Below are positions 3,259 to 40,200 of a stretch of DNA of 64,000 nucleotides, in pieces (within the stretch, counting starts at the first letter, position 1; every line of letters begins with the position of its first letter). A program made the position numbers and the translations under genes. The stretch covers positions 47,421,224-47,485,223 of the forward strand of contig CM055111.1 of assembly GCA_029204225.1 (NCBI GenBank), read 5' to 3'. This DNA is from Diphasiastrum complanatum. Its lineage: Eukaryota; Streptophyta; Lycopodiopsida; Lycopodiales; Lycopodiaceae. A model generated the notes under the pieces. That model did not search any database. It was given only the letters and a program-made list of their open reading frames with translations, and was not told the DNA's origin.

Positions 3259-3269
3259 ACTAAGTGTAG

Positions 3270-3406
<137 letters not shown>

Positions 3407-3604: not shown

Positions 3605-4925
<1,321 letters not shown>

Positions 4926-6337: not shown

Positions 6338-8421
<2,084 letters not shown>

Positions 8422-9817: not shown

Positions 9818-9820
9818 GAT

Positions 9821-9832
9821 TGGTATCAGAGC
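9821..9832 (+). other. Primer-binding site of element A
   Basis: TGGTATCAGAGC, complementary to the 3' end of plant initiator Met tRNA, three bases after the LTR. Typical of Ty1/copia. Confidence 0.92.
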
Positions 9833-9883
9833 ATAGCTCAAATAAACCGAGAGATCAAGTTTGTTCTATTTGTATATTGTTAT

Positions 9884-10690: not shown

Positions 10691-10784
10691 AGCAACAACA
10701 ATAACAGCCAGACTCCTCCAACGTGGCCAAATTCAAGGAGCAAGACACACACTTGTTAATGGCTTACAACAACAATGAAGACTG

Positions 10785-12060: not shown

Positions 12061-12072
12061 TGGTATCAGATC
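12061..12072 (+). other. Primer-binding site of element B
   Basis: TGGTATCAGATC directly after the LTR: eleven of twelve bases complementary to initiator Met tRNA. Confidence 0.85.
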
Positions 12073-13547: not shown

Positions 13548-15038
13548 TTGAAGAAGAACAAGTACAAGGTTACTTGTTTCTCATGTGGCAAAAAGGGGCA
13601 TTTTGCCTCCCAATGCTACAAAAGGAAAAAACAAGCCAACATCACTTGTGAAGATGAATCTCCTTGTGACAAAGAAGATTCACTTATGATGTCTAACTTT
13701 TCATCTTTCTCTTTCAAGCATTCTAATGTATGGTGGCTAGATAGTGGTGCCTCATCCCACATGAGTAGTGATAAAAACTCTTTTTGTAATCTTGTACCAT
13801 ACAAAGGATCTAGAAGCTGTATCTGTACAGCAAATGATGAGGAATGTATGATAGAAGGCATAGGAAGCATATCTCTAGATAAGCTTGATCTCAATGATGT
13901 GCTCTATGTTCCTAGTTTGACTAAAAATCTAATAAGTGTAGGCCAACTCAATGATGATGGTCTACAAGTAGACTTTAAAGATGGTACTTGCTTGATCACA
14001 AAAGATGATGATATAATAGCATCATGTTCTCGTTTTGGATGGTTATTCAAGCTTGATGGAAATGGAAATGCTAATCTTTGCTCGGATATTGTGCTACAAG
14101 GAAAGCTTTCAAATGAAGATCTATGGCATAGGAGGTTGGGCCATCCCAACTCCAAGGCCATGCAATCTATGTGCAAGTTGGAGCTAGCTCATGGTTTGCC
14201 TAAGTCCATAATCAAGGAGCCAAGTCCTTGTGATGCATGTGCATTGGCCAAATCACATGCAAGGCCACATCAAAGATCAACCATCAAGTCCAGAGCACCT
14301 TTGAAACTCATCCATAGTGACATCCATTTCTCATCCACCCAGAGCAAGGGTGGAGCTACATGTTTTATAACATTTATTGATGATTACTCATGTTTTTGTT
14401 GGGTTTACCTCTTATCTTCTAAAGCACTTGCATATGAAGCTTTTGTGAAGTTCAAAGCTTTTGTTGAGAATCAACTATCTTGTAAAATTAAAGCCTTGAG
14501 AAGTGATAATGGAGGTGAATACATCTCCACAAAGTTCATAAACTTTTGTGATGATTTTGGCATTAGAAGAGATTTCACTTGTTCATACTCTCCTCAATCT
14601 AATGGAGTGGCCAAAAGAAAAAATAGAACTCTATGTGAATGTGCAAAGGCACTTAGACTAGGAGCCTCTCGTTCTAAAGATTATTGGGGAGAAGCCATAG
14701 GATGTGCTAATTATCTTTGCAATTTTTTGCCAAATCATGCTATAGAAGATATTGCACCTTATGAAAAGTTCATTGGAAGGAAACCCGAGGTCAATCATCT
14801 TAGAACATTTGGATGTGTATGTTTTGTACATGTACCTCTTGAAACAAGAAAAAAAGAAGATGCTAATGCTCTTAAAGACATTATGATAGGCTACTCAAGT
14901 AAAGCCTATAGGATTTTTGTTCCATCTACTAATCAAACTATGATAAGTAGAGATGTGATCTTCCATGAAGATCGAATGTACATGAAGGACAATGTGCAGG
15001 AATCTCAAGAGCTTATTCATCAAGGAGGAGTCTCTTAA
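13548..15038 (+). pseudogene. Element B zinc knuckle, protease, integrase
   Basis: A 490-codon open stretch. In order: zinc knuckle CFSCGKKGHFASQC (residues 10-23); protease WWLDSGASSHM with intact D-S-G (about 62-72); GAG-pre-integrase LWHRRLGHPN; integrase core with D in HSDIHF and D in RSDNGGEY. The third catalytic residue, normally the E of NGVAERKNR, is K here (NGVAKRKNR), exactly 35 residues after the second D. The C-terminal FGCVCFVHVP and ISRDVIFHED words close the domain. One base change (GAA to AAA) explains the loss. Integration from this copy should fail. Confidence 0.93.
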
Positions 15039-16752
15039 TCAAGTATTGATCAAGATGAAGACCTGTTGGGGCCAAGATCACAAGAGAAGCCGAGTCTACC
15101 AATGACTCCAAGAAGGTCAACCTGAGAGAGATCTGAGCCTAGAAGACTCACCTACTTGGGAAAAGGCAAACAAGTGGAGGATTCAAGTTCTCTACATGCT
15201 TTTCACACACTTCCATTGAAGAACCATCAAGTGTGGAGGAAGCTCTTCAATCAAAGGATTGGATCAAAGCTATGGAGGCCGAGTATGAAGCTTTGATGCA
15301 AAATGAGACTTGGCAACTTGTAGATCCACCTAATGACAAGCATGTCATTGGATGCAAGTGGGTCTATAGAATCAAGCTCAATAATGATGAATCAATCAAT
15401 AAGTTCAAAGTAAGGCTTTGTGCTAAAGGCTATGCCCAAATCAAAGGCATAGATTATGAAGAAACCTTTGCTCTCGTAGCAAAGATGGTAACCATTAAAA
15501 GTCTCATTACTTTTATGATTGGAAAATGCTTCAACTTGATGTTTCCAATCCTTTCTTAAATGGTTACTTAGAAGAAGAAATATATATACATCAACCTCCA
15601 AGTTTTGTTGAGAAGGGAAAAGGATCAAAAGTATGCTTACTTTTGAAAAGTCTTTATGGCTTGAAACAAGCTCCAAGGGCTTGGTATGAGAGGTTGAACA
15701 CTTATCTTCTTTCTATTGGTTTCAAGATTAGTTCATATGATCCATAATTATATCTTAAACATGTTGGTAATGATATAATCATGTTGCTTATTTATGTTGA
15801 TGACATTCTATTATGTGGAAGCAACATGGATTTACTTGTTGATACCAGGATCTCCTTAGGAAAAGAATTCAAAATGCAAGATCTTGGATTTTTACATCAT
15901 GTACTTGGATTAGAGATCAAGAACTCTAATGACTTAGCTTTCATTTCTCAAGAAAGTTATGTAAGATCTATGCTTAAGAAGTTTAAAATGCAAGATTGTA
16001 AAAGCATAGATACTCCTATGGAGTCTAATGTTAAAGACACTAAAATTTGTGATGAAGCATCCTTTGAGGACATCACACTTTTTAAAAGTCTAGTAGGCTC
16101 TTTAATATGGCTCACTATCACTAGGGTTGATCTCAGTTTTAGTGTGCATAAGCTTAGTCAAAGCATACAAAATCCAAAGATCCATGATTGAAAAAAGGGG
16201 AAGAGGATTTTGAGATATGTTGCATCTACTCAAGACTATGGACTTTGTTTTAAAAGACATGATTTAAGCCTTGTTGCCTTTTTATATTCGAATTTTGCAG
16301 GTGATAAGGTGGATAGAAAGTCCACAAGTGCTTACACAATATTTTTTGGAGGTAGTCTTGTCTCTTGGAAATCTAAGATGCAAGACACTATCTCCTTATC
16401 CTCATGTGAAGCCGAGTACAAGGCTTTGACTATCACAACAAAGGAAGTCATTTGGATCAAAAGATTACTAGTGGAGCTCGGGATCATTCAAGAGGAGGAA
16501 ATACCTTGCATCAAATGTGATAGCATCTCGGCCCAATATCTTGCAAGTAATCCAATCTTCCATGCAAGAAGTAAACACATAGAGTTAGCACACCAGTATG
16601 TAAGAGAAAAAGTTATGGATGGTGAAATTCTCCTTGAGCATGTATCAACTTCAAATTGTTATGCAGATTTACTCACCATGCCTCTAGCCAAGAAGGACTT
16701 TGAAAGACATAGATCAAATCTTGGCTTGATCTCCAAGTCCTTAGTATTGTAA
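15039..16752 (+). pseudogene. Element B linker, RT and RNase H
   Basis: The linker holds stops. RT begins near 15230 (VEEALQSKDWIKAMEAEY, NETWQLVDPP) and shifts frame near 15530. It continues through [40 protein letters not shown], a stop at 15745 and the YVDD box (LIYVDDILLCGS, about 15790). The RNase H part follows after a stop at 16189. Its first acidic site, normally YSDxDxAGD, reads YSNFAGD, apparently two residues short, while the SSCEAEYKAL glutamate remains. Reverse transcriptase and RNase H would have copied the element RNA. Confidence 0.9.
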
Positions 16753-16774
16753 ATATTATTTTTATTTTGAGGAG

Positions 16775-17321
16775 TGTGAAAATATTGTAAAATTAAAATA
16801 ATATTAAACTTAGAGATTCAAGTTTTGGGGTTTGTCCAAACTTGAGGTAGACTAGTCTAGTAACTTTCCAATTAGAGTCAAGTTAGATTTTAGTCTTCAT
16901 AGTGATGTGTAGGTCTAGAACCTATCAATAAGCATTTGAGGCTACTCTTGTACGTCAAAGGATTCTCAAAAAGAGAGATTTTCAAGTCTTATCCATTTCT
17001 CTTTTTGTCATCTAGTAGAGAGGTAGAGGCAATGTGGCATCTAGATTGTTCTCTCTCTCCACGAGTTCTAGAAGGCCTCTTGTATTATAAATAAGGTGGC
17101 TTTGTACCACAAGATTACACTTCTTCAAGTAAAGCTTCCATTTGATCCATTTGAGGTGTAATGATAGTTAGATTGTGATGAATGCTCTTGCCTTCATGCT
17201 AACTAGCTTGCCAATGTTTTCCATCTCATTGTTTTTGGAATAGAAGCTAGTTTAGTGTGCAATCATTCATTCTCTTGATCCTTTGTACTTGCAGCTAGTT
17301 CACATGTGTGAAAAGTTCTCA
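16775..17321 (+). repeat. 3' LTR of element B
   Basis: Starts TGTGAAAATA right after a short purine run (gaggag, 16769-16774), ends AAGTTCTCA. About 97 percent like the 5' LTR by eye count. Confidence 0.93.
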
Positions 17322-17677
17322 ACAGATCCAGCACCAAAGCTGTCAACAACAAGACTCTTCATGAAGTTTGGCATGGGCACAAGCCTAGTGTCAGCCATTT
17401 AAAAATCTTTGGTTGTATATGTTTTGTTCACATTCCTAAACATCTTAGGAAGAAACTGGATCATAGGACAAATAATTGTATTTTCATTGGCTATCCTGAT
17501 GAACATAAAGCTTATAATTGATGACCTAATTACTTAGTATAAATCAGCTGTTCATACATCTCATTATCCATAATAAATCATAATTGTGAATTGTTATGGT
17601 CCATCCGCCAATGTAGTATTTGTCTCTAAGGATGTAATGTTTCAAGAACATACATACTATGACTTCAAACAATCATC
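17322..17677 (+). pseudogene. Element A integrase, second part, and linker
   Basis: Resumes A's integrase exactly where B interrupted it: SSTKAVNNKTLHEVWHGHKP, then LKIFGCICFVHIP and NNCIFIGYPDEHKAYN, ending in a stop at 17520. After a short broken piece the copia word VFVSKDVMFQEH appears, followed by TYYDFKQSS, where element C cuts in. Confidence 0.88.
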
Positions 17678-17939
17678 TGTCAAGAATTAGATTTGCAACA
17701 TCAAGCATTCACCATAAGCAATCACCAAAAGAAGACGGAAGAAGAACACGCACTGTCACTCTATCACACTAACACATACAGAATGTAAAATGTACAAATA
17801 AACCCTGAACCCTGATAGAGAGAGAAAACCTACGAGTAGACTAATAGACTAGCCTACGACTATTGACAACTGGTCACAACTGTCAACATTAATGTGCATC
17901 GTAAACAGTAACAATGAAGTTTATCATTGATTTCTAACA
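17678..17939 (-). repeat. 3' LTR of element C
   Basis: On the minus strand TGTTAGAAATCAATGATAAA to CTTGACA. Matches 21464-21727 closely, with a two-base gap and about a dozen substitutions. Confidence 0.92.
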
Positions 17940-17947
17940 CTCTCCCT

Positions 17948-19690
17948 CAATGATAAAATTACATTTTTCAATCCCTAATAGAGTATGAAACCTCTCGAAT
18001 TTACATCTACCTAATGACTTAGTAAAAATATCTGCCATTTGATCTTCAGATTTACAAAAAACAAGATCAATGGCTCCATCAAGAATTTTCTCTCGAACAA
18101 AAATGGTAGTGTATTTCGATGTGCTTGATTTGAGCATGTAAAACTGGATTTTTGGCAAGGTCAATGCAACTTTGATTATCGCAAGATATAGTAGTCGCAT
18201 CCACCTATGGTTGACCTGAATCCACAAGCAATCTTCGTAACCATACCTCTTCTTGTGTAGCATTGTTGAGTGCTCGATATTCAGCTTCTGTCGATGATAA
18301 GACTACTATAGGTTGCTTTTTGCTGCTCCATGAAATTGCAGCTGTACCATAACTGAATGTATGACCACTAGTAGATCTTCTGTCATCAATATTACCTGCC
18401 CAATCGGCATCTGTATAACCTACCAACATTGGCACTTCAGGCTGATCATACTTCAAACGAAAATTCACTGTCCCTCGAATGTATCTGAGAATACGTTTAG
18501 CAGACTTCCAGTGTGCTTGACTAGGATCTTGCATAAATTGACTAACAACACCAACAGCATAAAAAATATCAGGTCACATGTGTGTCAAATAAATCAAACT
18601 ACCCACCAGTTGTCTATACAAATAAGCATCCACTTTCTCATATTCATCATATGTAGTAAGCTTTATGTTGACATCCATAGGTGTACTCAAAGGCTTACAA
18701 TCCTGCATATTGAACTTATAAAGCAAATCTCGTGCATATTTGCTTTGTGTAAGAAATACCATGTTTTCCTTTCGCCATACTTCAATGCCAAGACAATAGT
18801 GCATCAATCCCAGATCACTCATGTCAAAAGCTTTGGAAAGATCTGATTTAATGTCATCAATTAAGCTCTCATTACTTCCTGTAATAATCAAATCATCCAC
18901 GTACAACACAATGAACATTATATCTGAATCTTGCCTTAGAATGTAAAGATTAGGATCAGCATCACTCTTTATCATTCCCCTTCACTTGAAGTGTTCATCA
19001 ATGCAAGAATACCACGCCCGTGGTGCTTGCTTCAATCCATAAATGGCTTTGTTGAGCTTACAAACGAGATGCTCTCTCCCTGGCTCAACAAATCCTTGAG
19101 GTTGTACTAAGTACACCTCTTCATCCAGCACTCCATTAAGAAAAGCAGATTTAACGTCCATTTGCTGGATCTTCCAACATAGAAAGCAGAAATAGCAATG
19201 ATAGAACGTATAGTTACCATCTTAGCTACGGGTGCGAAGGTCTCTTCAAAATCAATACCTTCCTACTGCTCAAATCCTCTCGCAACCAACCGTGCTTTGT
19301 ACTTGTTGAGTTGCCCATCAGCTCCATATTTGATCTTGTATATCCATTTGCAAGTGATAGGCGTCTTACCATCAGGTAGCTCAACCAAGTTCCACATCCT
19401 ATTCTTCGATATAGCTTCCATTTATATTTCCATAGCTTCATGCCACTCCTTGTGCTCCTTTGCTTTATCAAAAGTTTTTGGTTCTTGAGCCTTGGGCACA
19501 GAACCCATTAGGGCTAGATTCATCTCTAATCTTGCAGGAGGTTTTCGATTTCTACTTGATCTTCTAAGCTCTCCCTGCTCACTTGATTCGGGAGTATTTC
19601 CCTTATTAGCATCACTTGTTACTGACAAGTACCACTTAGGCACTCTCCTAGGAATCTCATTATTGACCCTGTCTTTTTCTTTGCCATGCT
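17948..19690 (-). pseudogene. Element C RT and RNase H
   Basis: Minus strand, starting near 19690 with the linker (GELRRSSRNRKPPARLEM). RT words follow: KTPITCKWIYKIKYGADGQL, ARGFEQ-stop, [19 protein letters not shown], then FIVLYVDDLIITGSNE with an intact YVDD at about 18900. RNase H has all expected acidic sites: GYTDADWAGN, LSSTEAEYRAL and CDNQSCIDLAKNP. The end reads MADIFTKSLGR. Breaks are a few stops (for example near 18573 and 18204) and frameshifts around 19000-19200. This is the most nearly intact RT-RNase H in the window. Confidence 0.9.
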
Positions 19691-20621
19691 AGGAGAATCC
19701 TACGAAGGCCAGCAAAATACGTATAACTGGGCCAATTCTCGCTTGCCATTTGTCTTTTCTTTGTTCCATCTCCTTTTGTTTCTTGAAGCATTCACGCTCC
19801 CAGTGACCAGGTTTGTTGTAGTACCTACAATTTCTAGGTTTATTCTATCTTGAATAGTCGTGTCCTTGACCTCGGTCTTGATTCCAATTACCTCGATTCG
19901 GACTATCATTGACTTGCTCATGAAATTGTTGAAATGATCCTCGGCTTGAGTTTCCTCCTCTCGATTGATACTTTCCACGGTCAAATCTTCCACCTCGTCC
20001 TCTAACTCCAAGAGCTTGATCATAGCTCCTGTTATGATGATTCAAGTTCTCTTGACATTGCTCGTTCAAAAGTAATCCACCTAGATCTTCATAGGTTGGG
20101 AAGATTTTCTCTTGTGGCTATACTCGTCACAAACATCTGATGTGACTCACTCAGACTATTCAATGTCAATTGCACGATCTCACGATCTTGTACTCGCTCT
20201 CCAACTGCTACTAATTGATCATGGATCTCTTTGATTTTCAGTATGTGATCGGCAATAGTTGCACCATCATCCATCTGCAATGTATGCAATTTGTCTTTAG
20301 AAATAGTATTCGAGATGTATTTGTCGTTTCAAACAATGCCTTCAATGTATCCCACGCTTCTTTTGGTCCTTCTGAATCTGAAATATAGGGAATAATTGCA
20401 TCTCTAACTGATAAGTTGATGACATTTTGGGCTTTCCATCTTCTCCTATCAAATGTCCGCTGATCTTCTTCAATCACTGGCCTTGTCTCTTCACTTGTCA
20501 CGATCTCCCATAGCTCCTTTTCCATCAAAATGTTCTTTAGTTTGAATTTCCAAACTGCATAGTTGTCGGCACCTTCCAATTTGCTTGACTCATTAAGGAC
20601 ACTCTCGTTTAAAGTTCTCAT
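19691..20621 (-). pseudogene. Element C gag joined to RT linker
   Basis: Starts with an ATG at 20621 (MRTLNESVLNESSKLEGADN, AVWKFKLKNIL), typical copia gag. A frameshift near 20290 leads to MDDGATIADHILKIKEIHDQL, then an RG-rich tail (GRGGRFDRGKYQSRGGNSSR) and a degraded zinc knuckle (CRYYNKPGHWEREC, with the second Cys read as Tyr). About 30 codons later the reading is already the pre-RT linker, so the roughly 2 kb that should encode protease and integrase are absent. Confidence 0.85.
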
Positions 20622-20696
20622 TACTGGATAGATGAGTCTGGATCACAAAATTTATTCACACCACAGAACTGTAAATTTTTGGTTGTACACCCGATA

Positions 20697-20940
20697 TCGG
20701 TACGACACGCGGGAGCATGACTGCTCAGGATTCTCTTTATCTCTGGCGCGTCGCTCTGATATTGCTACTGATATGTGATATCCGTATGACGCGCGGATGT
20801 ACGACTGCTCTTGGTTTTCTTTACCTCTGGCGCGTCGATTCGATATTGGTACGAACATGCTATATCTGTATGACGTGCGGATGTACGACTGCTCAAGACT
20901 TTTCCTACCTCTGGTGCGTCGATCCAATATTGGTATGAAA
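20697..20940. repeat. About 84-bp tandem repeat, 3 units
   Basis: Three diverged units, each containing acgactgctc (or atgactgctc), a ctttacctctggcgcgtcg-like block and gatattggtac, beginning near 20703, 20786 and 20870. It lies in the untranslated leader of element C between primer-binding site and gag. Confidence 0.85.
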
Positions 20941-21450
20941 AAGATTAAAAATAGAGGGAATATGAGAACTTTCAGAGGGGATATTCGAGATTCCCCACTT
21001 CGGTGCGGCGAAGATTTTGAAATGTGTGATCGTTCAAAAGACAAAGATCAGTAATGTGAAAAGTATGAGGCCTTCTAACTCTAAATGGTAGTACTAGACA
21101 CTGTCTAGTGTGATTTGTGGTACTCCAAACAGACAAATGAGAGATTTCTTGGCAAACCTCTCACACAAATAGCACTTTCCACAAGTACTAGGAAGTATTG
21201 TAAAAAATCTCCCCCACTCAACAAATTTTCAATCTGTCTGATGCTGCCCTGGCCTTTCTGATGCCTCCGAGACTGTGCTTTTGTTCCCCACTAATGATTC
21301 TGAGCTCCAACCCTACAAAATACACCAAAGAAGAATTTCTTCCAACTGTTTTTGTCTCTCTTAGCTTTCACCTCCCGCAAGGGACTTTCTCACTTCGTTG
21401 CGGAGCCTGTGACAAGCTGTATCCACTGATCAGGCACGCATGACTATCGC
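20941..21450 (-). other. Untranslated leader of element C
   Basis: Between 5' LTR/primer-binding site and the tandem repeat. No coding signal recognised. Confidence 0.55.
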
Positions 21451-21463
21451 TGCTCTGATACCA
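21451..21463 (-). other. Primer-binding site of element C
   Basis: Minus strand TGGTATCAGAGCA adjoining the LTR; complementary to initiator Met tRNA. Confidence 0.93.
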
Positions 21464-21727
21464 TGCCAAGAATTAAATATGCAACATCAAGCATTCACCA
21501 TAAGCAATCACCAAAAGAAGACGGAAGAAGAACACGCACTGTCACTCTATCACACTAACACATACAGAATGTAAAATGTACAAATAAATCCTGAACCCTG
21601 ATAGAGAGAGAAAAAACCTACGAGTAGACTGATAGACTAGCCTACGGCTATTGACAGCTGGCCACAGCTGTCAACATTAATGTGCATCGTAAACAGTAAC
21701 AATGAAGTTTATTATTGATTTCTAACA
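21464..21727 (-). repeat. 5' LTR of element C
   Basis: Partner of 17678-17939. Ends (minus) in CTTGGCA just before the primer-binding site. Confidence 0.92.
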
Positions 21728-22571
21728 CCATCAATAAACGATGCTATGTCATTTCATCCTATTTTACGTAGCATGGATTCTTCCAACGTTGATGTTTCTT
21801 CTATAGAACCTACAGCTACAGCTATAGAAGCTGAGCAGCCGACAGTACCTGTCATCAGACCAGACCAAGCTAGCTCGAGCAGATCTGGAGAAATTCAAGA
21901 AGAAGCATCATCGCATTCTGGTCAACCAAACGTCCGTAGATCCTCACGGACGCGGACAGTTCCTGAGAGGTATGCACCTCAATCATTCTGGACTTCATCA
22001 GAAGAACCAGAAAGCCTAGCCAAAGCAATTAACTCCAAGGATGCTGTGGTGGCAAGAAGCTATGGAAAACTCACTTTTGACGAATCAGACCTGGACACTG
22101 GTCGACTTTCTTACTCACAAGAGAGTTATTGACAACAAGTGGATCTTCAAGAAAAAGATCAACTCTGATGGTTTCATTGCTAAATGGAAAGCACAGCTTG
22201 TGGCTAAAGGATACACTCAAGTCCAATGAGTGGATTATCAAAAAAATTTCAGTCCTATCATCAAGATGCAGTCAATCAGGACTCTAATTGCGTTAGCAAC
22301 CGCGGAAGACCTCAAAATGCACCGAATGGATGTCAAGACAACATTTCTCAATGGCAATGTCGAAGAGGAGCTGTACACCTTCCAACCGAAAGGATTCGAA
22401 GTCAAAGGCCAAGAGCACAAAGTGTGCAAGCTGCACAAAGCAATCTACAGTCTGAAACAGGCCGCAAGATCATGGTTCGATAGAATCAACTCTTATCTCA
22501 TTCAATTGGGATTTGCAAACAGTTCAACTGACTGTAATGTTTATTCAAAGCATATAGGCACCAATTCAGTT
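21728..22571 (+). pseudogene. Element A linker and RT, truncated
   Basis: Continues A after C. The linker is open (MDSSNVDVSSIEPTA, VRRSSRTRTVPERY, a usual copia pre-RT motif) and shifts frame near 22050. RT then reads TWTLVDFLTHKRVIDNKWIF, WKAQLVAKGYTQVQ-stop, NFSPIIKMQSIRTLIALATA, MDVKTTFLNGNVEEELY and YSLKQAARSWFDRINSYL. The reading ends at VYSKHIGTNS, before the YVDD box, and fuses into LTR sequence. Confidence 0.9.
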
Positions 22572-23710
22572 CACCTTGCAGGAATCACAAACTTAGACAA
22601 CCAATTTACTTGAAGAGCGTTCACGACGGGCTTCTAGCTGATCTCCAGCAAAGGGTAACCAATCCCATTATAATTTTAAGTTCAGATGTTGAGTTTAATA
22701 ACTTGAAGTCATTGAAGACTTGGCCATCTTCAAAGACTTCCACAAAACTTGCATTTAGAACAAGTCTGCAGATTTACATTGTTTTTTGAGACAGTCTGCA
22801 GAAATGAACTATGTTCAAGATAGCTTCGCAAAAGTTTCACGACAGTCCAAAAGTTCAACTATTTTAATACCTTCGACTTTGTTCAAAAATTCCCAAATGT
22901 CATCTATTTTCATGTTGAACTATTTTTAACGACACCTTCGCCTTTTTAAAGGCACCTTTGCCTTTTTCGCAAAATCTCGAAGAGAGAGAAAAATGTTGAA
23001 GGTCATCTACTTTGAACGAGGAACGTTCCCAGCCACTTCCCAAATTTGCGAACTGAGAGAAAGCCACTTTCCTTATAAAGCGAAGTGAGAGAATTTGCAA
23101 CGCTCTCGTCCACGTCAACATTCCCTATGGGTTGATAGTATACACTGTACAGTTGTCACAAAAGCCATATACTTCCAGGTACAACAGCTTACCTAATTAG
23201 GTGACAGTCATTTATTGTAGTTAATACATGAATGAAATCTATAAATAGATCATCCGAGCACAGATTGTTAGTTTCTCCATCCATGAGACGCATTATTTGA
23301 GCCTCCCAATTATGCCGTCAATTTTTTGTTGTAATTGCTATTTGTATTGTGCTTCAATGTAATATAGCAGCAGCACGTTTTTATCTATCTACAACGACGC
23401 CTGAGGAACTCGCGATATAATACTGCTCTTCCATTTATTTCAGAACTATACTTCACATTGAATCTGATTTCAGTAGTACCACACACAAACCATCTCTAAT
23501 CTCTTCGGTGACTGTACTCTTGTTTTTAGAGTATGAATTAATTTTTAAGATCCTGTTGGGCACTCAGAAGCATAAAGCTATGATTATCTTTAGCATAAGT
23601 TGTCTATTAGACTGGTTTTGCACCTAGCAGCCGATTAGAACAGGAGAGCTGTTCCGCAGTATTCCTGTTCTCTCTCTGTTCTCATTCTTCCTATCTCCCT
23701 TGCCCCATCA
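22572..23710 (+). repeat. 3' LTR of element A, 5'-truncated
   Basis: Corresponds to 8542-9817 of the 5' LTR. Missing are the first 120 bases and an internal block of about 120 bases near 23395. The terminal CCCATCA and the AGTAA duplication after it are intact. Confidence 0.92.
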
Positions 23711-23851
23711 AGTAAGAGAAGATTGGACTATGAAATGTTATCTACAATGCAAGTTGTTGAGTTAAACGTATTTTGTACATGGATAACAACTGACATTCAA
23801 CGTTGACACCTATTTTCCTCACTATGCTAACTTGCGCGGTTTTGTGTGGTG

Positions 23852-23999
23852 GGATATGGTGACATGTACCAGTTGAATGTCTTGAAATATATTTTGCTTT
23901 ACGGTGCTTTCTAGTATTGTATACTATTCAGCTATTTCCTTGTTGGTTTATGAATAAAGGTTTTAAAGTTTTTGGTCTTGACTTGTCAAGAGGAGCTTT
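23852..23999 (+). repeat. Dispersed repeat, copy 2
   Basis: Aligns with 3120-3258. It lies between the end of element A and the Penelope-like remnant, and may be the 5' end of the latter. Confidence 0.55.
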
Positions 24000-24177
24000 G
24001 ATCTGTTTATCTATCTCTATGCATCCTTGAGGTGTAAATCCAACTGTCATTTGGTCAGAATAGTACCAAAACCTTTACCTTACTTGGATTCATAAGCTAA
24101 CAGGAGTTTTTTGACAAGATGCTGTAAACCTAGGTTATGGGGAGCTCCTTCATCCCCCTAATCTATTCATTCACATT

Positions 24178-25170
24178 TTGATTATTTGCATGAAAAAAGC
24201 TGTCATGTTGCATAGTTTTATTAATGGAATAGATCGTGCTACCTGTAACACTGTTGGACCTGATGATAAGGTACTTTGTATGGTTGACATGTTGGACACA
24301 TTACATTGGGTTAAGCTTTACATGGAGTACAGTAAGACCACGATTGATCCCTTGGGTATCATTGAAAACTTTGCTACTGACTTGGCCAAGCTTGTTGGAA
24401 AATATGAGAGGGAAGAGAAATTTTATAATTCTCATATCAAAAAAGTTTTTTCCTACCTTGAGAAAGAAAACGACATTCTTTTTGCTGATCCCACCCCTGC
24501 TATTACTGATTCACCCCCACCTCCACACCCTCTCATTTTTTTTTTTATGATTTGGACGAGGATAGTGCCTCGCAACTTGAAACTTTCTCTCAAGATATAT
24601 GTGACGTTGGTGATCAATCCAATTTTGAATTTTGCCATGTCCCTTTTGTCCCTTCATGCACTATTGAACTCAAGTCTACCCGTACTTCTTACAAGCTTTG
24701 GAACTTACCCCCTGTCAATTTTATTGCACCACTACTTATCGAGCTTTGGATTATTCTTGCACATCTCACTGATAAGAAAGTACAAACCTGCAAACTTGCT
24801 TCCTTGAACAAAAACTTCATTCTTGACACTCCCATTGCCTTTGATAATATCATACGTATGAACAAATTTGAGCCTGCTTGCTGCCCTTCTGAGCAAACCT
24901 GGGCATGAATTCATGGACATTTTGACACCAGTTTCAATAGAATAAATCTCCACCAAGCTAGAATTTGGAACTGGAGAAGACCTTTCTTCAAATGTAGATG
25001 TGGTGACAAATGCAAAAATCAATCTTCCATTATTTGGTTTGACCATGCCATCTGGTATAGGATGAATAACCTGAGCATTTTCTTTCCTGGTGATTCTCCA
25101 CATAACCAACGCAATGCCTTTTTTCTTTGGCTTCACAAACCTGCTAGAGATGCTGTCAAAGCACACCTGA
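24178..25170 (+). pseudogene. N-terminal ORF of Penelope-like remnant
   Basis: A frame opening MIICMKKAVMLHSFINGIDR runs to a poly-T near 24545, where it shifts to DEDSASQLETFSQDICDVGD and continues to 24908. A further piece follows after a stop. The product would be a soluble protein with an acidic middle (EKENDILFADPTP) and a C-C-x-S-E-Q end. I do not recognise a domain. Because it stands just upstream of an RT in the same orientation, it is probably the first part of that element, but a captured host fragment cannot be excluded. Confidence 0.4.
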
Positions 25171-25599
25171 CTTTTCTATTCCTTTGAGCTTGCTGCTAAT
25201 CTTTCTGCCAAACTCCTTGCAAGCCAAGGCAATGCTGAAAATGTTTTGTTTAAAAGATCCATCTTTTTCACATTGCAAGACAAATTCTTCCAAAACTCTT
25301 ATAAAAGAACAAGCACTTTTAACCTCAACAACCCAAGCTTTGTCATATCAGGCCAAGAAGGAAATTTACAGGATACAAAGGCAAAGAAGGGCGAGGCAGT
25401 GGTACAAAGGAAGATTTCTGGTCAAAAAGCTGAATTTTTATAGGGATTGATATGTTTGCAGGATGATGAGGTTTTGGACAGGAGGGAAGTGAGAACACGA
25501 TGGATCGCCTAACGGAAATCTCTTTCTACATTTACTTTACCGCAATAGGATATTTGAGACCATTCATGTGAAGCAGTTTTATGCTCGCATTTTATTATA

Positions 25600-27168
25600 G
25601 TTATTCGGCTTTATACATGAGTCCTTCAACGATATTGTTTTTGGTTGGTCATACATGCCGAATGTTAAAATGGACTGGTATTTTTCTTATGAAGTCTTTT
25701 GCAACTTTCAAGTTGAAAATCTACAAGCTTGCTCATGTACTACTTTGAAACGTTTTAAAGGCTTCATATCAACAAATTTTGATAATATTTTGACTACAGA
25801 TTGCAACTTAATCAATAGTAAGGTCCTTAAATGCTCCTTGGAAAAAGGACTTAATCATATCGTGTTAGAACATACTAATATCCAAGGTACTGCTTCTGAA
25901 TTACGTGATGGGAGGCTTAAACTCAGGAAAATTTTACCTATGTATTCAAGTACAGATATTGATAAGCATGCTGATTTTTCTAGAGAAAGTGCCCTAGAAT
26001 TTTAAAAGAACAAGAAATGGATTCAAGGGGACACCGTCCCACTGCATAAAAATAAGATGCTAGTAATGAACGAAAATGGATTACCAAGCATTTATATGTC
26101 AATGGAATTGACAAGGCTCAACATAATCCTTGTTTCATATGCATATATCTTGTACGTAAACTTGATATGGAAAGACTTGATAACTAAGATTTCACACCTT
26201 TTCCTGATCATACAAATAATCTCGTCTCAAGTTCTTTGGAATAGTAAACACGTCTAAGTCTGATTTACTACCTGATGACTTCATATATTCAAAGGAGTTA
26301 TCTTACTTGTTATGCACATACAAAGTGCATAAAGATACTTTCAAATGGATCACAAATGCACATGATTGTTATTTTTCCAGACTTGCTAAATTCTTGACAT
26401 GTGCTCTTGGTATGTTGTATCCTTTCATTAGGAAAGATACAGGCCTTAAGGCAAACACATACAAGAGCGTCCTAAATGGGGATACATCTTTACTATGGCA
26501 ATGTGATTCATCTATCGATTTCTATCTTAATTTATCCAAACTCATATATACAATGAAAGCTACCGATATTTCTAAATGTTATGAAAATATTCCTTTGGAT
26601 GGAACTGACGATTTAAAAACTATTATGATGAAAATGACCAGTTTGGCCTTTAAGATTGCCAAAATCAAAGTACTCAAATACAGACATATACCTAGGTCCA
26701 ATGATTTTAAATGGTCTTCTGAAACAGCAGTATCGAATGAATGGAATAGTATAGACAATGATACCTTATGCGAGTGGAATTCCTACTTGATAGACAATTG
26801 CATTGTCAGGCTTGGAGATCATACCTGGAGATAGTTATGAGGAATACCTATGGGTTTTTCATGCTCACCAATGTGGTGTAACTGGTACCTTTCATTTTTT
26901 GAAATGTAATTTATCAAGATTAGGGCAATTTGCATTTATGAACAACTTCAAATATTCGTTTAGATATATTGACGACATTTGCTTTATAAATAATCATATG
27001 GTTGGACGTTTCCCAGACAAAACTCAACCGAGAACACCTGAAAATTCATTCTGAATCTATCCCTTGGAGTACCTTGAGATAGATGGAAACAATGCCATTG
27101 GTAATTCAGTGAACTTTTTGAATATTACTATTTCATTCGACCCAATTAGTGGTTGTACACACTTGTCC
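25600..27168 (+). pseudogene. Penelope-like reverse transcriptase, decayed
   Basis: Several in-register frames give, in order: a C-x-C stretch (CSCTTLKRFKGF) with a conserved loop (FDNILTTDCNLI) at 25720-25800, YKVHKDTFKWITNAHD with the K-x-H-K word near 26320, RLAKFLTCALG, the A-motif aspartate in MKATDISKCYENIPL near 26555, and FRYIDDICFINN (YIDD, catalytic aspartates) near 26965. After it come YPLEYLEIDGNN and VNFLNITISFDP. This order and wording match RTs of a family common in animals that groups with Penelope-like elements, not LTR or LINE RTs. The motif-B part is deleted between 26820 and 26940. Several stops are present. Confidence 0.6.
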
Positions 27169-29560
27169 AAATCGAAAATTAGGACATCTAAACATGAGAT
27201 TAATCTTGTATATGCATCATAATAGCATGGTCAAGGACTTAAACTTTAATGCTGCCTCCACCAACATTTGACATGTCTGTGAGATGTGTGTACTAGGCAA
27301 ACAACCTAGTTCAAGATTCCCAAAGGGACAAGCCACTAGAGCTAAGTCCATTCTAGAATTGATACATAGTGATCTGTGTGGCCCTATGAGTACTCCCTCT
27401 CTGGGTTCTGCACTATATTTTATTACTTTTATCGATGATTATTCGAGATTTACCAACATTAAGTTCATCAAGAACAAGTTTAAGGCTTTCAATTGTTTCA
27501 AAGACTTCAAATAGTTCGCTGAGACAAAGACTGGTCGACGACTCAAGACCCTTCGTACAGATAGCAGTGGAGAGTTTCTGTCAAACGAAATATTTGACTA
27601 TCTAGCATCAATCGACATTCATCATCAGTTCACCACCAGCTACACACCACAGCAGAATGGAGTAGCCGAAAGGAAGAATTGAACATTGCTAAATGCAGCA
27701 CGATCAATGATGTCAAATGCTCAGCTCACTAAGAACTTTTGGGCTGAAGCTATTTCAACAACTTGCTATCTACAGAACTATTCAAATACCAAAGCAGTTG
27801 ACTCAAAGACTCCCTTCGAAGTTTTCTATGGCCACAAACAGAGTCTACGACACCTCTAAGTGTTTGGTTGTCTTTGTTATGTACACATTCCCTTTGATCT
27901 GAGAAAGAAGCTTGACCATGTTAGCTGTAGGAGTATCATTGGGTACTCGACGTCACACAAGGCATATAGAATTTTTTATGTCGAATTGAGCCGAATCTCA
28001 GTTAGTCGTGATGTTGTCTTCCTCAAAGATAAATTCTTCGACTTCAAGTAGAAGTAGCCAATGCAAGAGTTCGTCCCAACGACTCCCATCACCATCGACA
28101 TGCCTCGACTTGCGACTGTTCCGACGGACATCGATATCCCTATCGCACAGCAAGGAGAATCATCATCTCAGCAACCGACTATTGTTCAAAGACCTGCACG
28201 ACATCAACAAGAACTTGATCGTTTCATCCCTCAGGCATTCATCAGCAATGATGAACCCACTTCAGTAATAGAAGCATTGACGAGTTCAAATGCAGACAAC
28301 TGCCATGCATGCTGAGTACAATTCATTGATGAAGAACAAGACCTGGTGTCTTGTCGAAGCTCCTATAGATGCAAAGATCATCGACACTAAGTGGATCTTC
28401 AAGATGAAGCTCAATCTAGATGGTTCAACAGCCAGAAGCTTGTCTAGTCGTCAAAGGTTACGAACAAACCTATGGGATTGACTACACTGAGACATACAGT
28501 CCAGTCATAAGACTTCAGTCAATTTGATCTTTATTTGCCTTTGTAGCTACCGAAGATCTAGAAGTACACCAGATGAATGTTCAAACTGTCTTTCTGAATA
28601 GATATATACAAGAAGACATCTACATCTATCAACCTGAAGGTTACATCCTTCAAGGCCAATAACATAAAGTATGTAAGCTACAGAAAGCACTCTATGGGCT
28701 AAAGCAAGCTCCAAGGGCCTAATTTGATAGAATCAATCGATTGTTGTTGCAGCATGACTTCATTCCGAACTCTACTGACTCTAATGTTTATCTCAAACAC
28801 AGAGTCTCAATATATGTCATAATAGCCCTATATGTTGATGACTCAGTTACTTCATGAGACGAAGACTCTTTTGTCAAAGGAATTTGAAATGACTGATTCA
28901 GGCCATGTGCACTACCCTCTGGGAATCGAGATAACAAGAGATAGAGTGAGGAGGAAGTATCACACTAAGTCAAGAAAGGTATCTAACCAGTGTACTCTAT
29001 AGGTATGGCATGAAAAACTACAAGTCAATAGACTCGCCTATGGACCCAGGATTCAAACTGTCAAAAGATATGTGTCCGAAAACTGATGTAGAGAAGAAAC
29101 TGATGTGAAAATACCCCTATCAGTCAATAGTTGGATCGATCATGTATGCCATGGTCTGCACCAGACTTGATCTAGCATTTATAGTTAGCACATTGTCACA
29201 GTTTATGTCCAATCCTGGCCTACCTCACTAGAAGGCTCTACTTAGAGTACTAAGATACATTCAAGCCACTAAGCACTATGCTTTGTGTTATAATGGAAAT
29301 ACAGAGGATGCTTTGACATTACTTACTTATTTTGACTCTGATTGGGTTGGTAATGTGGACACAAAAAAAATCCACATTTGGCTATCTTTGCTTTCTAGCA
29401 GGGGGACCCATTTCATGGAACAATCGAAAAGCAAAAGCAAAAGAAAAGGTTTTTTTTTTAATTATAAAAGAAAGGTGAGGCACAGATGCAGTATCTTTGA
29501 AGGTTGTTATTATTGGATGTTGTATTTGATGACTTTTTCATTTAACTATTGTGAGACTTA
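27169..29560 (+). pseudogene. Copia element D, 5'-truncated pol
   Basis: Begins abruptly inside GAG-pre-integrase (RKLGHLNMRLILYMHHN). Integrase follows: LIHSDLCGPM, ITFIDDYSRF, TDSSGEF in place of DNGGEF, QQNGVAERKN and a stop, FGCLCYVHIP, SVSRDVVFLKD. The linker (about 28060-28310) and RT ([48 protein letters not shown]) are readable with many stops and frameshifts. RNase H ends near 29430 (YIQATKHYALCYNG, DSDWVGNVDT). No LTR or target duplication was found. The wording is closest to element G, so D and G are one family. Confidence 0.88.
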
Positions 29561-33972: not shown

Positions 33973-34268
33973 GTGTATGTTTCTGTTTGCTTTGATGCAA
34001 GAAGAAGAAGAAGCAGAAGTAGATTATGCTTTGGTGATGCAAGAAGAAGGAGCAGCGTTGCTAATAGAGTACGATCGATTTTGCGGCATCGTTGCTGGTG
34101 TAGTTTTCAGAGCAACCATCAATTTTGCTTTTGTTTTGCGAAGCAGCGAGCTGGTCTAGGGTTTTCACGTTCCGCTGAGGTTGGCGGAAGGGAGCGGTTG
34201 TAGAATCTGCTGAAGAAGCCGTACATGCGTGTGAGCGGAGAGGGACGTGCTTCTTTTGGGGCCTGAAG

Positions 34269-37200
34269 ATGATGAATAAGGTTATGGCAGCTGATGATGC
34301 AGCAAATGAGAAGGCTTTCACTGGAGAATCCGGCACAGCATCAGGTATGCCCTCTGACGGGGGGGAGAGTCATGAGATACAGGATGTACAGGTTGATGCA
34401 GAACCCAGTTTGAAGGCAGGTGATGAGGTCTATTGTAGTCAATCTGTGAAAGAAGAAGCATTGCCTGGGATTGCTGTGGATGATGATGATGATGATGAAG
34501 CAGGAAATATCAGTAAATTGGAAGAAGCCGACTCGCCCAAAGCCGAACCTGTTTTGCTTAGAATGCATGACATAGACTTCGCCAAAGAAGTCCAAGGCAC
34601 AATTCTGTCTGAAACGCATGTTCTAAACTGCGCTGAAGACTTCCAAGGTCCAATTCTGCCAGAGGTGCATGATATAAACTCTGCCAACGAAGTCAAAGGC
34701 TCAGTTCCGCCCGAAATGCTTGATTTAAACTTTGCCAGCAAAGTCGAAGACCCAATTTTGCCTGAAATGCATGACATAAACTCTTCCGACAAAGTTGAAA
34801 GCCTAATTCCACCTGAATTGCATGGCATGAACTCTGTTAACGAAGTCGAAGGGTCATTTCTGCCTGTAACGCATGATGTAAACTCTGTTGACGAAGTAGA
34901 TGGCCCAATTCTGCCTGAAATGCATGATGTAAACTCTGCTGATGGATATGTCGGGATGAGTGATACAGACATAGAAGTTGAGATCAATGAGGTTTTATCA
35001 TCAAATGATGGCAATATACTGTCAAAAAATAGTCCCTTTGATCATGAAGATGATAGGGCTTCCTGTTTTGATGGTGAAAAGTTATTTTTAAGCTGCCCTG
35101 AAAGTGCCGGGGATATTGAAAATGGCTCTGACGTTGATCATGCAGAATTTGGAGATGAAGATGCTGCAGAAGTGTTAGAAAATTGGGCAGTTCAAGATGA
35201 TGTATTTATTGACTCAGAAACCATCATAGACAGCGTACCTTTGACAGATACGCTTCCGACTTCAGTAAAAGAAGGCATTCGTAAACCTAGCGTTAACATT
35301 GAAAAAGACAATTCTGATATTTATCTCACAAGTGAGACAAAATGTGAGAGTGAAGATGCAGTGAAAGATGAATCTGTTCGCATAGAATTCTCTGAATCAA
35401 ACCTTCCTTGTGCTGATACGATAGAAGCTCATGCTGGCTTTACAAAGACTTGTTCAAGTGAAAATTTAAAGTTCACTGAAGATGCTCCAAATTCAAAAAA
35501 GAATAACAGTAGCAAAATGGAAGGAGATGTATCCACCAGTGAGAATTTTTTACCCGGAATGGAATACTGTAGGACTGATGCAAGTGTCACGGCAGCAGAA
35601 ATAAGTGAGGTGAAGCTGGATAACAGTCAAGAGTTCCTGTCAGAAGGCAGCGATTTGCAAATGAATTCTGATTGCAGTTTGGATGGTACGACTGAAACTA
35701 AGATCCAGTTGGCACTCCATAATTTGGATCACCCATCTTCTAGGGATATTCACAATAGTGAAAAGATTGCATCAAGGGTACAATATTCAACTAATGTGAG
35801 CAAGAAGCGGATTGACCTGGGCCATCAACTCGTGCGAGAAATCGTAAGTTTTTGTCAACTATGATCTGCTGGAGCATTTGTGAGTCAGCTTGTGAAACAT
35901 CTAGCATGGAGCTTCTATTATATAGACATCTCCATCATAAAGTGATGCATCTAAATTCTTCTTTGCATAGTCACGACAAACTTTGATCCGAGATGTTTAA
36001 AACCTTCCTAGAATCTTTTGATTTGAATGCTTGCTTAAATCCTAGACAGAATCTGAAACTTGTTATTATAAGTTTTCTCATGTAGCCATAGTAGCAACCA
36101 AACTCATTTCAAGCCCGTTGAGTTTCAAACACGTTTGAACTTTGAAATAGCTTTTGTTATATTGGAAAACAAAACCCATTTACACCTATTTGTGCCTTGT
36201 CACCTATTTGCAAGATACCATAAGGTTGTGCATGTTCCTATGCTCCTTAATGTAGTCTTTTTTGTATAACAAATAATGAGCAATTTTTTCTACAAAATAT
36301 AGAAAAAATTCAATTTACTGAAAGCCCTAAAATTGAAAGAAGCTTTTAAATGTTTGGTTGATTTTTCCAAATGTTTCAAACGTTTCAAACTTGAAACGAT
36401 TGGTTGCTACCATGCATGTAGCAATCAATGCCGTATTTTTGGAAGCTAGGGAATGTTTGAGAGGTGAAATTAACGTGATCTATGTAAAAGAGTCATCCTT
36501 GAAGATGTGTATTCTTGGCTGCACTTTCTCTTGGATAACTTGCATATTTCTCTAGGTGATTCTCTTTGTCAACAAACAATAGGTTTTCCCATGGGTACTA
36601 ATTGTGCTGTTCATCTAGCTAACTTTTATCTTTTCTCTTATGAATATGAATATATACAAAGATTAGTTTCTTGTGGTACTTGTCCCATCTTATTGCATAA
36701 ATGAACTCATGTTAGAAGATATATTGATGACCTATTTGTTCCTGATCTTCCTAATTTTGGTAGTTTTCTATATAAAGACCCTAAAGTTTTTGGTGGAGGA
36801 ATCTCTCCTAAAGACTCACGTGATCTTAATTGAACAACTAGTGATGATAAGTGCAATTTTTTAGACCTGTCTATAAGCCAGGCTAGGTCAGGTTTTTTGG
36901 TTGATGTTTTTGATAAAAGGCTGCAGCCAGAATAAGGTAACTCGAACATGATTCACATGCCTCATATTTCTTCAAATATTTCGGATTCTGTTAAATATGG
37001 AGTGATCACTTCTCAAATCTACATGTTTTCTCGTCTTTGTACTAGTAGAGATGCTTTTTGTAGACCAGTGAATTATGATCTTTATCATTATTTTTTCTTT
37101 CTTCTTACTAGTTGTCTTTTGCTTCTTAGTCAACACTGGGTCTACCCAACAGAATCCGGATTCTTTCAAAGCCCAGTTAACAACTTATGCTTGGGTACTG

Positions 37201-40200
37201 ATGAGAAGACATAAGCAATGCTGTTTGGCTAAGAGTTTTTGTTTATTGAATTTTATATTTTTGTTGTGACTTAGATCCTTTGACTTTTTGAGTTGCTTGT
37301 ATATTGTTAATGTTTACTTCGTTCATGATATTATTCATCATAACTTTTTCTTTGAAAGAAACTTTATTTGCACTTTGTAACATAGATCTAGCGGTACCAG
37401 GATCCGCAAATCCCGGTACCGCGGATCCACACTGGTACCGCGGATCCATACTGATCCGCGGTACCATAATATATTAAATTTTTTTAATATTAATATTTAA
37501 TATTTTTTTTTAAATATATATATATATATTTTTTATTGTATTCTAGTGGGCAATATGGGTATCAGCTTGAAGCTGTTAACGAGAGCAATCCATTTCAAGG
37601 TAAATTTATAGCTAAAACAATATCTTTTGGCTTTTTTTGGGCAGATACAGCACTAAATAATATTAGGAAAAAATATTAAAAAAAATAAAAAAATAATATA
37701 TTGTGGTACCACAATATGTACTATACTCAAAACCTTTTGGATATTGAGCTTCTGCATGAAAAGAAATCTTTCGGGTTGTTAGATGTATCATGTAGTATTG
37801 ACCATCAGCATTCACAAAATCAGGTAAAGATCCAACATGATAGAGAGCAATATGAAAGGCAGTGCCAAGTTTCTAAGCAGGAAAGTCAAAATCGCTGGAA
37901 GCTGGAAAAGGTGAGGTCCTTTTCTTTGTATCAAATCACTGTATTAATAAGATAGTGTGGTCCTTGCGTATTATCAGGAAACATCTGTTTCAAGGTAAAA
38001 CCAGTAATAAGTCTTGTTTAACGGATTCAAATCATGAGGCTCTTGTACTTTAGTGAATGCTACTGAAGCTGTGAAGCATATTTCCAGGCATAGTCGCTAC
38101 AGGGTGCTAAGTTGCTTTTGCTTTATGTCTGCCTTTACCTCCATTATGTGAGCATTAGTTCTCTGATGTCCTTGTATCTATGAATTTTAGGGATTGTTAA
38201 TGCACAAGTCTGCATGAAGTTAAAAGTTCTTCAGATCTGACTAGGCTCGAAAATCAGCAAAATTTTGATTAGGTTGAAGGTTTTAGAGAACTCCTATTCA
38301 AAGTATACACCAAATGGGAATACTTTCATTTCTCGTCTCTTCTCCTTTATTCATCTCCAAGTGCTCGTCGGTCTCCGTTTGACTGCAAACTTGCTTTACA
38401 TTTTCTCCTCAATCTTTTGGTTTCCCCAATGTCACCATGCTTGCTTTTTGAAATTATCACTCAATACTACTACCTATCTGGCACCATTTGGTACTTAACA
38501 ATATGTTGCCGTATGTACAGAATGTGTTAAAAATTGTAATGAAACGAATTTGCCTATAAAATCCCCGAACTCCACTCATCTGAAAAAGGCTGCCAGTAGC
38601 AAGAGGAGAGGGGTGGTTGGAGATATTAGTTGTGGTTCCATTTGAGTGAAACGACTTCACATCGAGGGTTTTATCCTCATGCAGAGTACAATAGTAGGTT
38701 TTTTACTATCGCTAGTTTCAGTTTTGTGTTTTTTTTCTGCATGGTAGTTTTTCAATGTTTTTACTTGTTTTAGGGAAACTAATGATGGAGACATCATTTT
38801 TGGGCAGTAGGCATCATTTATCACCTCCCCAGTAGTGTTAGTACGTCCATTGTTGGTTTTAGCTCATGTGTTTTGTTCTTTTGCTTAAATTAGGCCTTTT
38901 CTAGGGTTTAGGCCATACGGGAGTGTGTTAGGGTGGTGTTTACGGCACGTCCCGGAACCCTAATGGGATTCCGGATCACGCTCCGGAATGCGCAACTTTG
39001 GCCCCCCAATCTTTGGGGCTGGGTTTTTACATAACGTTGGCCCATATTTTAGGTTTTTTGCATACTGTAGGCTCATTTTTAGTATTACCGTGCATGCTAT
39101 CATCAATATGTTTAGAGCTTGAAGAGGAAAAGGCAAAAAGGACCACCCTAAAATTTATTATTTTCCGTAAATACCTCTCATTTGTACCCTATATGCTACC
39201 TGCTGGTCTTTATTCAAATTTGAGGTTTTTTTTGGTGACGGATTTGTTGGTCTAAGGCTTTGTGTGAGACTCCTTTGTTATATCTTTCACTATTCTAATG
39301 AATTGGTGACAAGGATGTTGTGACATCTTAATCATCAATGTAGTCCATTCAAATTGTGGAATCCAGTGTTGCATATGATGATGCTTTAAATACTGTTTTG
39401 CAGAACGTTGAACACAAATGTCAGAGCCAAGTCTAGGTTAACTTTTATACATTTTTAGCACATCTGAGCCAGATGCAGCATAAACAAACAGGTGCATAAA
39501 TCCTATTGAGGGTTACGCATTTAAAATTGTCTTCTCAGAGTATCATTAGACTGCCTTTGTTTGAAACTTAGTTGCCCGTTCCGGAACGGAACGCGTTCTG
39601 GAACGTGTGTTCTGTTCCGGAAGTTGGCCAAATTTTTTTTAGATTAAGGAATGCAATCAAGATATATAGCGTGGCTGAGAAAGCGATTCTAGCTCGGATA
39701 TAGATAATGTGGTTTTTAACAAAGCAATGGAGATTAAGGAATGGTCAGAGTAGTATGTCCGAATATAAGGAGGACAGGATGTCGAAGCTACAAGATGTTC
39801 CAACCAAGGATCAGCAAGACAACAAGCGTCGTGATACTGCAGAAAAACGTAGTAATCAGATAACCACGGTCTCCTACTGGAAGCTCTTCCGTTATGCAGA
39901 TTTGCTTGATGTGACGGTAATGGTGGTAGGGGCAGTAGCAGCAGTGGTTAATGGATTCGTATTCCCAGCAATGTTCAGGCCCATGTCATCCACGGGTTTG
40001 AGACTCTCCGGAACGATCCCTCCAAGCTTACAGAGACGATGCATCTCAAATATAGCGATTCTAGGATCAACGTGTTTGTTAAAATAGCGATTCTAGGATC
40101 GTGTTTGGTAAAATTGATTTCTTTGTTAAAAATTACACATCATTGATTTCAAAACAATGATTTCAAATCGATTTCTGATCCGTAGCGTCCCTCAATGCTG

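Follow-up and report, generated by a model that had tools for sequence, protein, structure and literature searches.

A putative Penelope-like retroelement family of Diphasiastrum complanatum with ends in CT tracts and no recognised endonuclease

The analysed stretch of 64,000 nucleotides (the window, C20:47421224-47485223 of a genome searched as 1.74 Gb in 5176 contigs) carries on its forward strand the remains of a reverse transcriptase (RT) gene. The RT words claimed by the first-pass annotation are all present on the plus strand between 25730 and 27144, and translation places them in several frames: a C-x-C motif (CSC, 25730-25738), K-V-H-K of the fingers (26322-26333), RT motif A, ATDISKCYENIPL (26559-26597), RT motif C, FRYIDD (26959-26976), YPLEYLEIDG (about 27056-27088) and FLNITISFDP (about 27115-27144). 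They belong to an ORF2 remnant at 25514-27171 (+) that comprises an N-terminal region with C-S-C, the fingers (KVHK) and the palm (DISKCYENIP, FRYIDD); tblastn with RT frames of other copies recovered it in pieces with E values of 3e-112, 8e-89 and 7e-23. Since the RT words lie in different frames with stops between them, the window copy is a pseudogene. Judged by its sequence, it is a decayed, dead member of a large retroelement family.

The interval originally proposed for the element, 25600-27168, does contain RT but is too short, the copy also including ORF1 and a 5′ repeat. The ORF1 remnant, frame-broken, occupies 24118-25398 (+) and was detected in three pieces by tblastn with ORF1 of L037 (E 1e-107, the best, and 4e-29); after it, in a frame ending near 25450, stands LNFYRD followed by a stop. 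The 5′ end of the copy is a (CT)72 run (6341-6486, +), at which homology to the repeats of locus L009 starts and which has the 5′ repeat immediately downstream. The first part of this direct repeat, a pseudo-LTR, spans 6341-8421 (+) and matches both L009 repeats piecewise at 67-89%. Its remainder (23711-24018, +) shows homology to L009, L011, L012, L027 and X025 and extends up to the CT-rich tract that forms the 3′ end of other copies; the pseudo-LTR end reads TCAAGAGGA...TCTATCTCTATGCATCC at 23986. The two parts are separated by a nested LTR element foreign to the Penelope-like element (PLE), at 8422-23710 (+), with TG...CA ends and a duplicated AGTAA (8417-8421 and 23711-23715). Its left LTR (8422-9817) and right LTR (about 22577-23710) are 89% and 93% alike in their aligned parts, and by reading of its frames it appears to be of the copia type. 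The nested element is 15.3 kb long and probably contains further nested pieces. It entered the window copy later than the PLE insertion.

On the 3′ side homology to other copies ends at about 27172, and the stretch 27172-27271 (+) is followed from about 27272 by what reads as a copia-like integrase remnant (Pfam rve at only E 0.028). The double hairpin, (CT)n and 3′ repeat described below are therefore absent from the window copy. The 3′ end of another, 5′-truncated copy lies at 3120-3402 (+); it runs into (CT)64, while its 5′ side is free of a CT run.

A search of the genome with a 204-aa RT piece (26220-26831) returned 151 matches, the best 150 of 3726 first-look candidates being scored. The relatives listed are 52-86% identical to the query, with a best E value of 1.3e-106 besides the query itself, so the RT words are not due to chance. 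Copies, which an element of this kind should have left, are many, at least 151 by this search with the query itself included, and several among the matches listed have uninterrupted frames of more than 400 aa. Twenty 10-kb stretches around relatives, selected for long open frames, were sampled. Many pairs of almost identical copies turned up both in this search and in the one with ORF1, inverted relative to each other on one contig or located on small contigs. This suggests duplicated haplotypes in the assembly, and the copy counts may be inflated.

ORF1, a conserved frame of about 470 aa upstream of RT (470 aa in L037, 467 aa in L038), was read in the longer copies L004/L005, L011/L012, L022, L028, L037, L038 and in the window copy. 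It contains a CRCGDKCKN motif and ends with LNFYRD-stop in L037, L038, L019 and the window and with LKFYQD in L022; the 456-aa frame of L028 departs from this ending through a frameshift. The RT frame is −1 relative to ORF1 in the compared copies, and the two share one frame in L004/L005. A genome search with ORF1 gave 99 matches (best 93 of 6473 first-look candidates scored). Searches of Pfam, NCBIfam and PDB with ORF1 found no convincing relative, and an AlphaFold2 prediction from nine shallow rows was unusable (mean pLDDT 32.4). The dN/dS ratio of ORF1 is 0.09-0.15 in all three pairs. For RT it was computable in 16 of 36 pairs, at 0.01-0.38 with the lowest values near saturation, the other 20 being saturated at synonymous sites. 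These values indicate that both frames were under purifying selection. The saturation means that the subfamilies are old and argues against recent arrival; a recent horizontal arrival is not suggested by these data.

Profile searches of the translations, from which assignment to Penelope-like RTs had been expected, agreed with it in part. An RT of the general RVT_1 kind was matched by 7 of 17 RT frames at E ≤ 1 (best E 1.6e-7), with bit scores under the curated cut-off in all four frames for which a score was seen, and C-x-C lies upstream of it; GIY-YIG upstream was not found. Nine pieces of the window scanned separately had no convincing Pfam match. For the host telomerase RT (TERT), one gene was found via PF12009. 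The RT profile of the family aligned with TERT over motif B only (35% identity over 48 columns, score 31.9, tool probability only 14%). The maximum of 150 shuffles of the motif-B exon was 24.2, and control scores with other sequences of the genome were 12.2-18.2 (copia RT pieces 14.3 and 14.5, a copia pol frame 16.6, a gag frame 18.2). The TERT exon with motifs T to A did not match the RT profile. Searches of PDB sequences gave chance matches only and no RT, and no RT relatives were found in viral and prokaryote contig collections. Placement of the RT near telomerase and PLEs is supported, not proven, by these sequence comparisons, and the family presumably belongs to the Penelope-like class. 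A literature search, made over titles and beginnings of abstracts with subscription journals mostly outside its reach, returned no description of this family or of a PLE specific for CT tracts.

The complete unit consists of (CT)n, a 5′ region of about 2.3 kb, ORF1, ORF2 (RT), two RNA hairpins and (CT)n. Part of a second unit often follows the first, so that the 5′ region stands at both ends as a pseudo-LTR (pLTR). Self-comparison showed the coding part to be flanked by direct repeats of 400 bp or more in 7 of the 20 loci (L009 and L010 being one duplicated site). In several copies they are about 2 kb long, as in L028/X028, where 3544-5517 and 9813-11715 are 92-96% identical over about 1.9 kb; the repeat of L011/L012, also one duplicated site, is 115 bp. 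The 5′ repeat begins at a CT run in X028, L022, X025, L009/L010 and L020. After ORF2 a CT run was found in 12 of the 20 loci, at 1264-1304 nt from the start of the RT piece in ten and at 3182 in two (L009, L010). Beyond this run there is a repeat-like start in 10 of the 12 and other DNA in L016 and L018. The upstream repeat of L020 is preceded by hairpin 2 of another copy, and the units thus stand head to tail. Pseudo-LTRs, partial tandems and 5′ truncation are all present in the family; the pseudo-LTRs and tandem units agree with the Penelope-like reading of the first-pass annotation.

The last ORF2 frame of L028 ends inside hairpin 1, which is followed by hairpin 2 and (CT)n. When nine of ten sequences were aligned (L022, with a deletion, was omitted), 95.6% of cells paired, and both sides had changed in 3 of 28 pairs; in hairpin 2, G-U pairs occur often. 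Slid structures paired in 29-58% of cells, and 9 to 61 of 500 shuffles reached the observed measures, so the hairpins exceed the shuffle control only moderately. They may serve in recognition by RT. No Rfam hammerhead ribozyme, such as canonical PLEs carry in the pLTR, was detected up to E 10 in seven loci, and no Rfam family reached gathering score in the window. Separately, a long hairpin at 8321-8544 of L028, perhaps a MITE, matches the plant miRNA models MIR533/MIR2118 below their cut-offs.

The family has its ends in (CT)n, as read on the sense strand. The pLTR end before ORF1 reads TCAAGAGGA...(CT)3-8 or a near form. Seven independent 3′ ends (L011/L012, L015, L025, L044, the window copy at 3250, L027 and L023) stop at this short CT tract of the unit itself or 4-6 bases before it and pass into (CT)14-104; L028 and L022 differ, their 3′ repeats breaking off at 8215 and 6717 and not at the CT tract. 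The 3′ junction of X025 starts 6 nt short of the CT tract that its own 5′ repeat contains. Both 5′-truncated copies read (L044 and window 3120-3402) are free of a CT run at the 5′ junction. Genome-wide, the pLTR end followed by (CT)12 had 396 forward-strand matches (backward controls 6 and 2) and 3087 on the reverse strand, where one place appears several times among the matches listed. The same end followed by (GA)12 had 13 forward and 116 reverse matches (controls 29 and 2), and the places listed are other, seemingly unrelated sequences. For hairpin 2 followed by (CT)n, 335 + 338 junctions were found, with 0 and 0 for the backward controls. A plain 3′ tail after ORF2 was considered as an explanation of (CT)n and rejected: homology continues beyond the run, which is thus internal too, and a second end lies at the CT tract of the pLTR. 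Among the hairpin-2/CT joints listed on contig C1, 1 of 38 is less than 1 Mb from an end of the contig, and none of 20 loci contains two telomere repeat units in a row; the family is therefore dispersed, not telomeric. In L015 (about 8467-8720, +), (CT)104 joins the pLTR end to the apparent start of another repeat, as though the CT run of one element had been the target of a second.

The X025 copy is itself inserted in a different repeat, and its target could be read without the element. Its flanks, joined (486 nt), gave 41 rows in a genome search, 34 of them across the joint with length differences of −13 to +21 bp; the same search for L011 produced no row across the joint, and the empty-site result rests on one host repeat. 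Of 18 places of the X025 type read, 17 are without PLE. At the exact insertion point 16 of these 17 have a short CT-rich tract: 12 have (CT)3-6 and four are imperfect (L055, L057, L060, L063). L050 and L052, both among the element-free sites, are near copies of each other. The remaining site, L061 (C8:48705660-48705830), carries (CT)42 without an element at the point where (CT)6 or less is found in most of the other host-repeat copies. The X025 copy itself is bounded by (CT)42 and (CT)44. In the eighteenth place, L062, (CT)57 leads into the 5′ end of a PLE from a different subfamily, which has an internal deletion and is closest to the window copy (87-89%). With X025 and L062, two subfamilies have thus entered the same tract of one repeat family, at separate places in the genome. 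Together with the CT junction counts, the empty sites demonstrate a bias for insertion at microsatellites.

A GIY-YIG endonuclease upstream of RT, anticipated by the first-pass annotation, was not found: the ORF1 and RT pieces submitted to Pfam gave none at E values of up to 10, and neither Pfam nor profile comparison detected one in ORF1 or the ORF2 N-terminus, before C-x-C and RT. In the profile comparison, ORF1 and the ORF2 N-terminus scored a probability of about 0.1 against five GIY-YIG copies of the genome, the profiles being shallow; a positive control scored near 100 but was made with related copies, so that the comparison works and a remote nuclease could escape it. A C-terminal GIY-YIG, as borne by the endonuclease-positive PLEs (Penelope/Poseidon, Neptune, Nematis, Hydra, Dryad), was not seen either, the last ORF2 piece of L028 (5838-6239) having no Pfam match up to E 10. 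As far as its sequence can be read, the element is without a recognised endonuclease; a much diverged nuclease may be present in ORF1 or the ORF2 N-terminus.

GIY-YIG stretches do occur in the genome (best 150 of 471 candidates scored). They were considered as the endonuclease of the element and rejected on the few examples read, which belong to other repeats. L039 and L040 have short GIY-YIG frames with no RT seen beside them. When the sampled PLE loci were searched by tblastn with one GIY-YIG stretch, only L014 and L016 matched. In L014 the stretch lies between a frame that reads as a Helitron-like helicase, about 1.2 kb away, and a 5′-truncated PLE; in L016 it is about 4 kb from the PLE and on the opposite strand. 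A dense cluster of short GIY-YIG stretches was seen at C8:0.6-3.2 Mb.

The reading that we prefer, with a probability of roughly 0.65, is that of a Penelope-like element which lacks an endonuclease and uses a (GA)n strand, paired to CU-rich RNA, as the primer for its cDNA. Where a CT/GA tract is nicked or broken, a strand ending in GA repeats would be left; this strand would pair with the CU-rich stretch of the element RNA and prime cDNA synthesis, i.e. target-primed reverse transcription. The opening could come from the fragility of CT/GA tracts, from a nuclease hidden in ORF1 or from help in trans. Target-primed synthesis agrees with the strand bias, the 3′ boundary, the 5′ truncation and the short CT tract seen at empty sites, and internal initiation agrees with the X025 junction 6 nt before its own 5′-repeat tract. 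GA-strand priming, the origin of the nick and the parts played by hairpins and ORF1 are what we infer from these patterns. Against this reading, the (CT)42-57 of the inserted copies is far longer than the tract of most empty sites, a difference for which short-tract priming is not a sufficient explanation. The extra CT may have been present already, have grown later or have been made by RT. Also counting against the reading are the RVT_1 scores under the cut-off, the telomerase match confined to motif B at 14% tool probability, the lack of any RT among the PDB matches and of a hammerhead, the deviating 3′ repeat ends of L028 and L022, and the CT-free 5′ junctions of both 5′-truncated copies.

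It is possible, though we consider it doubtful, that the element needs an endonuclease cut, provided by a diverged nuclease in ORF1 or in trans by a GIY-YIG protein of other repeats. Conservation of an ORF1 that matches nothing and whose fold prediction reached a mean pLDDT of only 32.4 leaves room for such an enzyme, as do the at least 150 GIY-YIG stretches of the genome, and Chlamys/Naiad elements are said to combine N-terminal GIY-YIG with a preference for microsatellites. The profile comparison of ORF1 and the ORF2 N-terminus (probability about 0.1 with shallow profiles, control near 100) speaks against it.

Unlikely, in our judgement, is that the telomerase-like RT itself makes the long (CT)n at insertion by copying a short CU template repeatedly, as telomerase does at telomeres. 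Such synthesis would account for the contrast between element-free sites, mostly (CT)6 or less and with (CT)42 in only one (L061), and the inserted (CT)42 and (CT)44, with (CT)57 at the second insertion, and also for CT on the 3′ side only in both 5′-truncated copies. But replication slippage lengthens microsatellites as well, L061 indicates that a long allele can exist without the element, and three copies (X025, L044 and window 3250) have a run that starts before the position of the CU tract, so the tract is not the template there. A fuller version, on which we place slightly less weight still, is that a telomerase-related, endonuclease-less element left the telomere for interstitial CT/GA tracts and adds long (CT)n there by repeated copying of a CU template.

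An LTR-like or other non-Penelope retroelement, with true LTRs and an RT only loosely telomerase-like, is improbable. In its favour, long direct repeats of about 2 kb stand on both sides, as LTRs would; the head-to-tail units of L020, the ending of L016 and L018 at hairpins and (CT)n without a 3′ repeat, the absence of RVT_2, integrase or RNase H from the element pieces scanned and the failure of copia RT pieces to align with the RT profile all contradict this. That assembly errors or the great abundance of CT repeats produced the CT association as an artefact is hardly credible: the surroundings of the loci often contain CT/GA runs, and the near-identical pairs suggest duplicated haplotypes, but the association is strand-specific (396 versus 13 forward matches), far above the backward controls (pLTR end 6 and 2, hairpin joint 0 and 0) and joined at the same motif.

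The element, with its proposed GA-primed cDNA and no recognised endonuclease, can be set beside several known systems. Athena, of rotifers and terminons, and Coprina have a telomerase-like RT and no GIY-YIG. The window family resembles them, and the endonuclease-negative (EN−) PLEs of Selaginella, in having no recognised endonuclease; Athena and Coprina are tied to telomeres, whereas the window family is dispersed and its tract is CT. The Chlamys/Naiad PLEs reportedly have N-terminal GIY-YIG, C-x-C before RT and pseudo-LTRs, and are said to show a microsatellite bias and no canonical hammerhead. Insofar as this account of them is right, C-x-C before RT, the pseudo-LTRs, the bias for microsatellites and the lack of a hammerhead are shared with our family; the N-terminal GIY-YIG is theirs and was not found here.

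According to the sources cited in this paragraph, PLE RTs and telomerase have a common ancestor (PMC3846280), and plant PLEs have been described for Selaginella and conifers (PMC9033089, PMC12477314, PMC10473749), EN− PLEs being tabulated for Selaginella (PMC9033089). For terminons, C-rich repeats at the RNA 3′ end are proposed to pair with G-rich telomere overhangs (PMC12477314); by analogy, the window family would do at interstitial CT/GA tracts what terminons do at telomeres. With canonical Penelope/Poseidon elements it has in common the pLTR, partial tandems and 5′ truncation, and the internal start of reverse transcription proposed here is like that observed in vitro for PAc, a Poseidon element (PMC11167929). 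Canonical elements differ in their C-terminal GIY-YIG and, in rotifer Penelope, in pLTRs of about 0.2 kb (PMC3846280) compared with about 2 kb here. PAc has a hammerhead ribozyme and AT-rich targets (PMC11167929), while the window family has CT tracts and no hammerhead in seven loci. The Dryad PLEs of conifers, which are seed plants, bear an endonuclease and are ascribed to horizontal transfer (as cited in PMC9033089 and PMC10473749); the window family gave no sign of either.

The family makes the spread of endonuclease-less PLEs away from chromosome ends testable, with a simple-repeat target, visible empty sites, an ORF1 of no known type and thousands of loose first-look candidates (3726 for RT, 6473 for ORF1). 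Some of the genome's long CT microsatellites could stem from it, and the genome is a natural testing ground for the way in which such elements locate a place to insert.

Two further features of the window deserve mention. A 561-aa open frame with repeated PEMHDINSA-like units lies at 34179-35864 (+) and has no convincing Pfam match. A second, distant RT lineage, similar in type, has left a relic at 36474-37211 (+), which tblastn relates to the first at 28.8% over 191 columns (36516-37070, E 1.7e-12); its pieces in the window have no Pfam match. In the genome the best 150 of 2007 candidates for this lineage were scored, and one frame reaches 1071 aa. Its words, GFPMGTNCA... and SNISDSVKYGVITSQIY, resemble those of Chlamys/Naiad-type PLEs.
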